Assembly (NCBI GenBank): GCA_018671895.1
Contig: JABHGV010000060.1
Location: 1-41,799, forward strand
DNA length: 41,799 bases
Direction: 5' to 3'
Source: Rhodospirillaceae bacterium
GTDB taxonomy: Bacteria; Pseudomonadota; Alphaproteobacteria; Rhodospirillales; JABHCV01
This document shows positions 24,206 to 41,129 of this stretch, piece after piece (within the stretch, counting starts at the first letter, position 1; each line of letters starts with the position of its first letter). Under the pieces are notes generated by a model. It saw only the letters and a program-made list of their open reading frames with translations, had not been told where the DNA came from and did no database searches. A program made the translations under genes and the position numbers.

Positions 24206-24538
24206 ATGAGCGAAACATTGACCATATCCGATAGCGCTGCAAAGCGTATCTCCGACCTTATCGAAGCCGAAGGCACCCCCGGCATGCGACTGCGTGTCTC
24301 GGTATCGGGCGGTGGGTGTTCCGGATTCCAGTATGGATTCGGCCTCGACGACCAGAAAAACGACGACGACCTTGTCTTCACCAAAGACGGAATCGAGATC
24401 ATCACCGATGAAATGTCCATTGGATTCCTGGGTGGATCGGAACTGGATTTCGTCGAAGAAATGATCGGCTCGTACTTCGCCATGAAGAACCCCAACGCCA
24501 GTTCGACCTGCGGCTGCGGTTCGTCTTTTTCCGTCTAA
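24206..24538 (+). CDS. erpA: Iron-sulfur cluster insertion protein ErpA
   Basis: This 110-residue A-type carrier passes Fe-S clusters to target enzymes. The three cluster-binding cysteines are present: one in VSGGGCSGFQYGF near residue 35 and two in the C-terminal CGCGSSFSV. The length and the block DEMSIGFLGGSELDFVEEM fit ErpA rather than IscA. It is divergent from gap. The last base of its stop codon abuts a terminal inverted-repeat element, which now separates it from xthA. Confidence 0.95.
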   Translation: MSETLTISDSAAKRISDLIEAEGTPGMRLRVSVSGGGCSGFQYGFGLDDQKNDDDLVFTKDGIEIITDEMSIGFLGGSELDFVEEMIGSYFAMKNPNASSTCGCGSSFSV

Positions 24539-24805
24539 GGGGGGAAACTCACTTATTCTGTGAGCTTTGGTTTGAGCAGAAATGTCGCGAGATTAGGAAT
24601 TTGGCCGAAGGACATGTAGGCATATTCGAGGACATAATGACGCTAGCTCGCGGCATTTATGCCAAATCCCGTTCGGGACGGGGCTCTTTTTTCAACGGAC
24701 GTTGTCCCTAAACCCTTGTGATGATGGCATCACGGCGACTTTAGCTCCTAGTCCGGCAAAAAAATGGCTCCCGCGAAAGCCATAAAATAAGTGAGTTTCC
24801 CCCCT
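24538..24805. mobile_element. MITE-like element or deleted insertion sequence
   Basis: The ends are perfect inverted repeats: AGGGGGGAAACTCACTTATT at 24538-24557 and its complement at 24786-24805. The body has no full-length gene. Internal paired segments include 24580-24591 with 24647-24658 and 24599-24605 with 24661-24667, in interleaved order. A hairpin plus T run on the minus strand at 24758-24783 resembles a terminator. A 29-codon minus-strand frame (24553-24642) ending in the left repeat could be the tail of a lost transposase. TA-like bases flank both sides, but no clear target duplication can be proven from one copy. Confidence 0.75.
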
Positions 24806-25579
24806 ATGATGAAAATCGCCAGCTGGAACGTTAATTCGGTCAAGGCACGGCTTGAGCATCTGTTGCGCTGGCTGAAAGAGGCATCCCCCGACATCGTCCT
24901 GTTGCAGGAACTGAAGTGCATCGAGGATAAGTTTCCGGCCCTTGAAATCGGTGATGCCGGGTATAACGTCGTGGTTTCCGGCCAAAAGACCTACAACGGC
25001 GTCGCCATCCTGTCGAAGTTTCCCATCGATCTTGAATTGACCGCCCTGCCCGGCGACGAGACTGACGAGCAGGCCCGATATATCGAGGCCTTTAGCGGCG
25101 GCGTACGCGTCGGCTGCATATACCTTCCCAACGGCAATCCGATCCCCGGCGAAAAGTTCGATTACAAACTGGACTGGATGGAACGCCTGTACGCACATAC
25201 GCAGAGTTTGCTGAATAACGATGAAGCCTTCGTGCTGGGTGGCGATTACAACGTCATCCCCGAGGACGGCGACGTTTATGACCCGAAAATGTTTGCCACC
25301 GACGCCCTGTTCCAGCCTGAATCACGCGCCGCGCTGCGCAAGATTATCAATCTGGGCCTGACCGACGCCTTCCGTGCGACGACGCCCGAGACCGGGCTGT
25401 ATACATGGTGGGGCTATCAGGCCGGTGGCTGGCCAAAAGACCATGGCGTGCGTATCGATCACCTGTTGCTCAACCCGCAGGCCGCCGACCGACTGGATGG
25501 CTGCGGCATCGACCGGACACCGCGCGGCTGGGAAAAACCATCCGACCATACGCCGATCTGGTGCAGCCTTCGGGAATAA
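24806..25579 (+). CDS. xthA: Exodeoxyribonuclease III
   Basis: XthA is an apurinic/apyrimidinic endonuclease and 3'-5' exonuclease of base-excision repair. The 257-residue protein has the EEP-fold motifs: MKIASWNVNSVKARL, the metal-binding LLQELKC, the GVAILSK strand, the LGGDYNVIP motif with catalytic Asp/Asn near residue 150, and C-terminal RIDHLLLNP and SDHTPIW. Start ATG 24806 (or 24809) directly abuts the inverted-repeat element, so the bases where a Shine-Dalgarno should be are CCCCCC. GTG 24791, inside the element, is an alternative but also lacks one. Confidence 0.95.
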   Translation: MMKIASWNVNSVKARLEHLLRWLKEASPDIVLLQELKCIEDKFPALEIGDAGYNVVVSGQKTYNGVAILSKFPIDLELTALPGDETDEQARYIEAFSGGVRVGCIYLPNGNPIPGEKFDYKLDWMERLYAHTQSLLNNDEAFVLGGDYNVIPEDGDVYDPKMFATDALFQPESRAALRKIINLGLTDAFRATTPETGLYTWWGYQAGGWPKDHGVRIDHLLLNPQAADRLDGCGIDRTPRGWEKPSDHTPIWCSLRE

Positions 25580-40954: not shown

Positions 40955-41028
40955 GGCGCGGTGGCGGAGAGGCTACGCAGCGGCCTGCAAAGCCGTGTAC
41001 ACCGGTTCGAATCCGGTCCGCGCCTCCA
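40955..41028 (+). tRNA. tRNA-Cys (anticodon GCA)
   Basis: A 74-base cloverleaf: acceptor GGCGCGG pairs with CCGCGCC, discriminator T, encoded CCA at 41026-41028. The anticodon loop CTGCAAA carries GCA at 40987-40989, and the T loop reads GGTTCGAATCC. The CCA is genome-encoded. A possible promoter, TTGACC at 40867-40872 with TAAGTT 17 bases later, lies upstream but is weak. Confidence 0.95.
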
Positions 41029-41053
41029 AGCCCCTCTAAGACGAGGGTCCTGA

Positions 41054-41129
41054 TCCGGCATAGCTCAGTTGGTAGAGCAGCTGACTGTTAATCAGCTTGT
41101 CGCAGGTTCGAGTCCTGCTGCCGGAGCCA
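41054..41129 (+). tRNA. tRNA-Asn (anticodon GTT)
   Basis: A 76-base cloverleaf: acceptor TCCGGCA pairs with TGCCGGA, discriminator G, encoded CCA at 41127-41129. The D arm has AGCTCAGTTGGTAGAGC, and the anticodon loop CTGTTAA carries GTT at 41087-41089. It lies 25 bases after tRNA-Cys and is probably co-transcribed with it. tRNA-Asn 3' ends are frequent integration sites. Confidence 0.96.

Follow-up and report, generated by a model that had tools for sequence, protein, structure and literature searches.

What occupies the junction between two packed genes in the window, the whole 41,799-nucleotide stretch of a Rhodospirillaceae genome that was analyzed here? The upstream gene is of erpA type (24,206–24,538, plus strand; Pfam PF01521) and the downstream gene is of xthA type (24,806–25,579, plus strand; Pfam PF03372). 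A first, sequence-only reading had proposed an element of 266–268 bp with inverted ends of 19–20 bp, filling the gap from the last base of one stop codon to the next start codon, and direct reading bore this out. The element (copy E01) covers 24,538–24,805 on the plus strand (268 bp), and its left end (AGGGGGGAAACTCACTTATT; 24,538–24,557) and right end (24,786–24,805) are exact 20-bp complements forming a terminal stem. Its first base is the final base of the erpA stop codon TAA, and the base after it is the A of the xthA ATG, which begins directly after E01; the erpA stop codon and both proteins are left intact. The internal segments, described earlier as pairing in interleaved order, are instead nested: inside the terminal stem lie a left hairpin arm (approximately 24,576–24,662; alignment columns 39–128), a small central hairpin around CCCGTTCGGG (approximately 24,667–24,678), and a right hairpin arm (approximately 24,682–24,769; alignment columns 149–241), all given on the plus strand. 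The left arm has the tip AAGGACATG-TAGG-CATATTCGAG (24,608–24,630) and the internal-loop motif TAGGA (24,594–24,598) opposite GACGC (24,639–24,643), and the right-arm tip is GTGATGATGGCATCAC (24,718–24,733). Within 24,791–24,805, the right end also holds an in-frame GTG that could extend xthA upstream, and at loci L003 and L403 the downstream open frame likewise reads into the element. Near the end of the window stand two closely spaced tRNA genes (40,955–41,126; Rfam RF00005).

The element is one of many in its genome (G000; 2.5 Mb, 98 contigs). A DNA search with E01 returned 11 matches with 76–100% identity, E01 included, after two further rows corresponding to E01’s own end repeats had been left out; two diverged copies of the same length were found by the end pattern and one more by the tip pattern, giving at least 14 dispersed copies. 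Among the 40 genomes searched, DNA-level matches occurred in two, G000 itself and G019. All five other genomes of the same taxonomic family contain erpA, and in the four in which the junction was readable the element is absent, with 0 nt (G002), 3 nt (G005), 65 nt (G004, counted by eye), and 85 nt (G003) between the erpA stop codon and the xthA ATG; in the fifth (G001), the erpA match lies too near the contig end to read xthA. Because the four readable relatives lack the element at this junction, E01 was gained there, and the same-place conservation expected of a host cis-regulatory RNA was not found in these four genomes. Copy E10 (L010:1492–1793) is 302 nt long owing to a longer central hairpin (GGGTGAAGGGGGCGACTTCCCCCGAGCACCC). 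Three end-like sequences in G000 stand alone, with no partner (L023:1501–1515, L034:1501–1515, and L044:1501–1515); at L044, approximately 35 nt of a right end survive. All three resemble what a deleted copy would leave behind.

We investigated the distribution of the family using the exact tip pattern AAGGACATG-N3-7-CATATTCGAG. Within the order, 14 of 317 genomes contained it (the reversed control gave 0), as did 2 of the 398 genomes of a phylum sample; G000 is counted in both. At least 110 stretches of the GTDB contig collection also carry it. The pattern was absent from viral contigs, and blastn against plasmids and phages gave no match to the element. Apparent chance matches in coding sequence of Ruminiclostridium, Acetatifactor, Clostridia, and one Spirochaetaceae contig were dropped; nine of the 110 loci were dropped as chance-like before the gene-neighbour count, leaving 101. 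Among the matches listed, relatives of the element occur in Alphaproteobacteria and, mainly in a one-arm form, in Myxococcales and Deltaproteobacteria. The collected loci yielded 82 matching end pairs (chance pairs included), from which a filter on length (262–272) and ends retained 54 two-arm copies, or 52 after removal of near duplicates.

The two-arm copies are nearly constant in length (mostly 264–271 bp) and carry neither a transposase gene nor a conserved frame, and their long stem, closed by the ends AGG...CCT, encloses the small central hairpin and both hairpin arms. They thus lie below the 500 bp by which miniature inverted-repeat transposable elements (MITEs) are delimited, and they have the terminal inverted repeats and many dispersed copies of such elements. 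Among the copies that fell outside the length filter, E10 measures 302 nt and L074, which has an insertion within its right arm, 329 nt. There are also shorter derivatives in which the two ends and the left tip are retained and the right arm is wholly or partly lost (L155, L065, and L060; 137, 159, and 214 nt, respectively). In the Rhodospirillales metagenome-assembled genome (MAG) G066, 40 of 124 candidate copies were scored. The one-arm form is a single hairpin of approximately 160–175 nt with CTAG-type ends. The Myxococcales MAG G317 has 14 near-full copies of it, besides partial copies and further subfamilies; it was also seen in a second Myxococcales MAG, in MAGs of Deltaproteobacteria, and, a single time, in a MAG of the Alphaproteobacteria. 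These one-arm hairpins of other groups bear the same or a closely similar tip. The end repeats of the subfamilies are very unlike one another (AGGGTCCAAACTCAC, AGGGTCAGGACCCATT, AGGGCCTGTTGACA, AGGCTGTAGTTTCC, and AGGCGGCGTGGACA), yet they match within each copy, and inside one genome unlike end repeats are found on elements whose tips are identical or closely alike. The ends of E01 differ from their own subfamily consensus (AGGGTCCAAACTCACTCATT) alike on both sides (TCC to GGG). In several copies a TAGG-type motif lies approximately 55 nt from either end, and L138 has a right tip similar to its left one (both by eye); the two halves of the element look homologous in inverted orientation.

The target site could be read from the flanks. 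In G066, 38 of the 40 rows, two of which have a left flank in common, carry T before AGG. After CCT, the base is A in 26 of 31 cases, and a single neighbouring repeat accounts for four of the five exceptions. In the TGGTGCTC subfamily of G317, CTAG stands on both sides of 6 of the 10 copies with script-delimited ends. The targets are YTA/TAR, equal to insertion into TA within YTAR, although the YTA..TAR flanks of most recent copies, which a duplication of TA would give, are equally explained by insertion between T and A. Across the 52-copy set, the inner A and T are almost fixed and the outer T and A are present in 34 and 43 copies, respectively; E01 has AA on its left. At the locus of the L163 copy, G068, which belongs to the genus of G066 and is strongly diverged from it (approximately 69% identity), has a continuous sequence without the element. 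In G066, a repeat of approximately 71 nt (TATGTATCGTGAATC...GGGCTGGGGAGGTGCG) or its start abuts an element end, left or right, in at least eight places (L310, L317, L329, L334, L337, and L405–L410); this may be another repeat, one for which the element’s end is the target.

The fold of E01 is far more stable than its composition accounts for: its minimum free energy is −117.6 kcal/mol, whereas 200 dinucleotide shuffles gave −78.5 ± 4.6 kcal/mol (z = −8.6) and none of them reached so low a value. In an alignment of 23 representatives with less than 86% identity, ten helices comprised 85 pairs, of which 74 showed compensatory change, including all 16 of the lower helix of the left arm; all larger helices of both arms covary. 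Paired cells reached 89.3%, versus 63.4% in shuffles (0 of 500 as high) and 38–45% in slid controls, margins that are large even though kinship can inflate the shuffle control and an alignment-derived structure tends to beat slid ones. Rfam searches, including a lax search of the element alone, matched no family, the sole lax match being a sub-threshold snoRNA at the element edge. The sequence-only reading had held that a single copy conserved in place with compensatory changes across relatives would favour a structured RNA over a mobile element. The compensatory changes are real and strong, whereas the single-site copy is not what was found: the changes lie across a dispersed multicopy family, and the element is therefore both mobile and structured.

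The most constant letters in the family are the AGG/CCT ends and the left tip, GGACATG-loop-CATATTC. The tip core is constant across the 52-copy set, a constancy that is partly sample selection because most of these copies were found with the tip. When the count was limited to copies recovered through overall similarity or through their ends, the exact core GGACATG/CATATTC was present in 13 of 13 copies in G000, 18 of 30 in G066, and 12 of 18 in G317. Of the 12 changed G066 copies, 11 have CCTATTC in common, a change that is uncompensated and that occurs in copies that have moved. The C·A mismatch of the tip is retained in 13 of 13, 29 of 30, and 13 of 17 readable copies, respectively (one of the 18 G317 copies gave no tip), and in two G317 copies it has turned into C–G. 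In other G317 subfamilies, AGG/CCT replaces ATG/CAT in the tip stem, and the C·A mismatch and its neighbours are unchanged. The tip is thus strongly, though not absolutely, kept. Several internal-loop letters, namely AG and A of TAGGA and CGC of GACGC, are also near-constant (47–51 of 52 copies).

We then compared paired and unpaired positions in copies of different age. In 31 copies of G066, a set chosen for a recognisable tip and right end in which the most decayed copies are missing, 77 of 2,014 unpaired cells had changed, and approximately 3,100 paired cells contained 142 one-sided breaks, 31 GU pairs, 6 one-sided standard changes, 7 both-sided standard (Watson–Crick) changes, and 1 other both-sided change. 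Paired and unpaired bases had changed about equally, indicating that inserted copies decay nearly as neutral DNA. In 11 older G000 copies, we counted 39 both-sided standard and 9 other both-sided changes, 60 one-sided breaks, 25 GU pairs, and 21 one-sided standard changes, with 99 of 649 unpaired cells changed. Since stems decay approximately as fast as loops in the recent G066 copies, the fold seems, on the simplest reading, to be maintained in the lineages that move and not by the host.

The strands and the genomic setting were examined for signs of an RNA. Both strands of the 52 two-arm copies fold equally well (plus strand lower in 23 of 52), and the wobbles of the terminal stem are AC 42 and GT 23, so there is no sign of the plus-strand RNA as the selected form. 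A single RNA strand for the whole two-arm element was rejected on this terminal-stem count and on cluster-weighted wobbles that differ between the arms (left arm, GT 19.5 and AC 14.1; right arm, GT 11.5 and AC 29.7, with GT 22 and AC 2 at the base of the right arm). In 30 one-arm hairpins, with the tip left out, the tip strand has GT 57 versus AC 11, although these copies are not independent. A strand-specific single-stranded form of each arm is suggested by these counts, no more. In G000, the genes on both sides run in the direction of the left tip at 11 of the 14 copies, and at no copy do both run against it; two further copies sit between divergent genes and one at a contig end. Most of these neighbour genes have Pfam support. 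By a crude gene caller, six G000 copies leave no more than 7 nt to the gene on either side, one of them in a hisH–hisA type pair. The orientation bias is absent in G317 (++ 9, −− 8), and G066 shows a weak opposite trend (++ 2, −− 8). We read the G000 setting as showing which insertions persist when a genome is compact, namely those that do the least harm. The orientation bias of the old G000 copies nevertheless exceeds what mobility alone explains, and a secondary RNA-level role in these copies is possible.

We also searched for an enzyme that could move the element. The sequence-only reading took a 29-codon minus-strand frame as a possible last trace of a transposase. This frame has 35 codons from its ATG (24,549–24,656), matches no Pfam family, and stays open at the corresponding position in no more than 20 of the 52 copies; it therefore gives no support for a transposase remnant, which we rejected. 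No transposase-bearing relative was found, and none of the copies that were read is long enough to contain a transposase. Of the two identities first offered, a MITE agrees with the multicopy state, the empty sites in relatives, and the TA-type target, whereas an internally deleted insertion sequence is not supported, the frame being unconserved and no transposase-bearing relative having turned up. Of 15 carriers, 8 have DDE_3 (IS630) genes, whereas G000 has none. Sixteen of the 18 DDE_3 loci were compared, and no end matched within three mismatches; two gave weak matches at four to five mismatches. Assignment as an IS630/Tc1-mariner derivative was not supported, no DDE_3 transposase with closely matching ends having been found in the loci compared. 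Y1_Tnp occurs in 4 of 16 carriers and was not found in G000, G317, or G066 (98% complete), and REPIN/RAYT membership was likewise not supported, the arms of approximately 90 nt also exceeding REP units of 20–40 bp (PMC3733652, as excerpted). An IS-size element bracketed by any of the 11 ends tried was not found in 2.7 Mb of partly overlapping sequence, short of whole genomes, the lone IS-size end pair being the outer ends of two neighbouring copies. Among the 101 loci, no transposase was recognised by eye in the 40 largest shared clusters of neighbour genes, taken from partial sequence. Gene neighbours, DDE_3 loci, and the end-pair scan, with 40 of 124 G066 candidates scored, thus gave no autonomous insertion sequence sharing the ends, as in type II MITEs, or more than the ends, as in type I. 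One IS630-like element in a CTAG target was seen in a Myxococcales MAG (L377:1373–2506); it starts with TAGTGCACC and has only TAGTG in common with the hairpin elements of that genome.

RUP and Correia elements are MITEs of IS630/Tc1-mariner type, and IS630 reportedly prefers TA in 5'-CTAG-3', the preference named in a 1991 title by Tenzen and Ohtsubo. Such MITEs and IS630/ISY100 (PMC2170065, in part) resemble the present family in being short and gene-less, with terminal inverted repeats and TA beside both ends, and IS630-type elements are described in the same source as duplicating TA; the present family differs in that the end repeats vary by subfamily while the internal tip and fold are kept, and in that no IS630 with matching ends was found. 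MITEPsy1, a 100-nt MITE of IS5 type, targets CTAG or YTAA, and the IS5-type end GAGGGTGTAGACAAAAT resembles by eye our AGGGCCTGTTGACAA subfamily (PMC3189936); a 4-nt duplication is reported for it, and the available portion of that source makes no mention of arms or a tip. REPINs and BIMEs (PMC3116915, in excerpt) share an inverted hairpin pair as the moving unit and movement in trans, but the hairpins here are much longer, the target is of TA type, and no Y1 transposase was found in the two carriers with most copies. A “Transposase-resistance” motif is named in a further source, seen in excerpt (PMC2864571). No published description of the family was recognised in the literature searched, largely at the level of listings, and we found no name for it, as the first reading had surmised.

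We consider the family to be, with reasonable probability, non-autonomous, MITE-like transposable DNA that is conserved in structure and moved by a predicted TA-targeting transposase acting in trans, with the fold being part of what is recognised. The conserved part is the fold and tip more than the end repeats, and the element works like a MITE. As DDE_3, Y1_Tnp, and end-pair searches found no mobiliser, this enzyme, like its recognition of the fold, is something we infer; it would cut at AGG/CCT and insert into TA, and by target and end anatomy it may be of IS630/Tc1-mariner or IS5 type. The folded arms and tip would be recognised or would bring the ends together, in which case mainly well-paired copies would move. 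E01 landed on the stop/start junction of the packed erpA–xthA pair. A bolder version, in which the substrate is recognised by its folded single-stranded shape, with stems of any pairing sequence, an apical tip with the C·A mismatch as an address label, a functional arm on either strand in the two-arm form, and an enzyme common across phyla, seems unlikely to us. Parvovirus terminal repeats and integron attC sites are DNA-processing substrates whose folded shape matters beside their sequence; the likeness is an analogy only, no related enzyme or sequence having been found.

Four other explanations must be weighed against the reading of a structure-recognising transposase. If the covariation were mutational, template switching would keep long palindromes matched without selection on pairing, a mechanism that is known (PMC8794818, in part; see also PMC7202029). 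Both-sided changes far exceeding one-sided standard-pair changes (532 versus 68 cells, hand-summed), the TCC to GGG replacement on both ends of E01, the mismatch turned into C–G in two G317 copies, and the scarcity of GU intermediates, which could mean DNA template switching and not selection, all point this way. However, the C·A mismatch stands in all 13 G000 copies, nearly all G066 copies, and most readable G317 copies, and the 7 both-sided Watson–Crick changes versus 142 one-sided breaks of recent G066 copies show that in-place repair of the arms is slow. Template switching may contribute to the matched changes (PMC8794818), and as the whole explanation we regard it as improbable, if the least so of the four. 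Nearly as improbable is an ordinary MITE whose IS630- or IS5-type transposase needs the terminal repeats only, with the arms as palindromic passengers. The YTA/TAR target and the gene-less multicopy form are usual for MITEs, stem-loop transcripts and intergenic copies are described as typical of them (PMC10969869, in excerpt), and a G066 sub-lineage (11 of 30 copies) moved with an uncompensated change in the tip. Passengers should drift, yet all larger arm helices covary and the tip core is intact in all 13 diverged G000 copies found without it; unlike end repeats accompanying the same or a closely similar tip inside one genome also speak against it.

An RNA with a host function that had spread by duplication, such as an operon spacer, attenuator, or stability element, would account for the co-directional setting in G000 and for the excess of GU over AC on the tip strand of one-arm forms. 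We judge it decidedly unlikely: the neighbours are unrelated, the range is patchy, Rfam gave no match, the terminal stem lacks a plus-strand wobble bias and the strands are equal in folding energy, the orientation bias does not recur in G317 or G066, and recent copies decay near-neutrally. Slightly less probable still is a REPIN/BIME-like element, that is, single-stranded DNA moved by a Y1 (RAYT) transposase with the two arms as an inverted hairpin pair. Such a pair is known as a moving unit (PMC3116915, as excerpted), and the strand-specific wobbles of the non-independent one-arm copies would agree with it, but Y1_Tnp was not found in G000, G066, or G317 and the units are several times longer than REPs (PMC3733652, in part). 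Nor is there a leading/lagging insertion bias, since the tip strand is the G-rich strand in about half of the copies (20 of 38 in G066 and 12 of 25 in G317); a lagging-strand bias was rejected.

The usual definition of a bacterial miniature transposon rests on its end repeats. In this family the internal fold and tip are kept while the ends differ, and this holds for elements of Alphaproteobacteria, Myxococcales, and Deltaproteobacteria. Should movement require the fold, the family would allow a direct test of whether a chromosomal transposase recognises structure. In addition, strong covariation, which is often taken as proof of functional RNA, can stem from mobile DNA.
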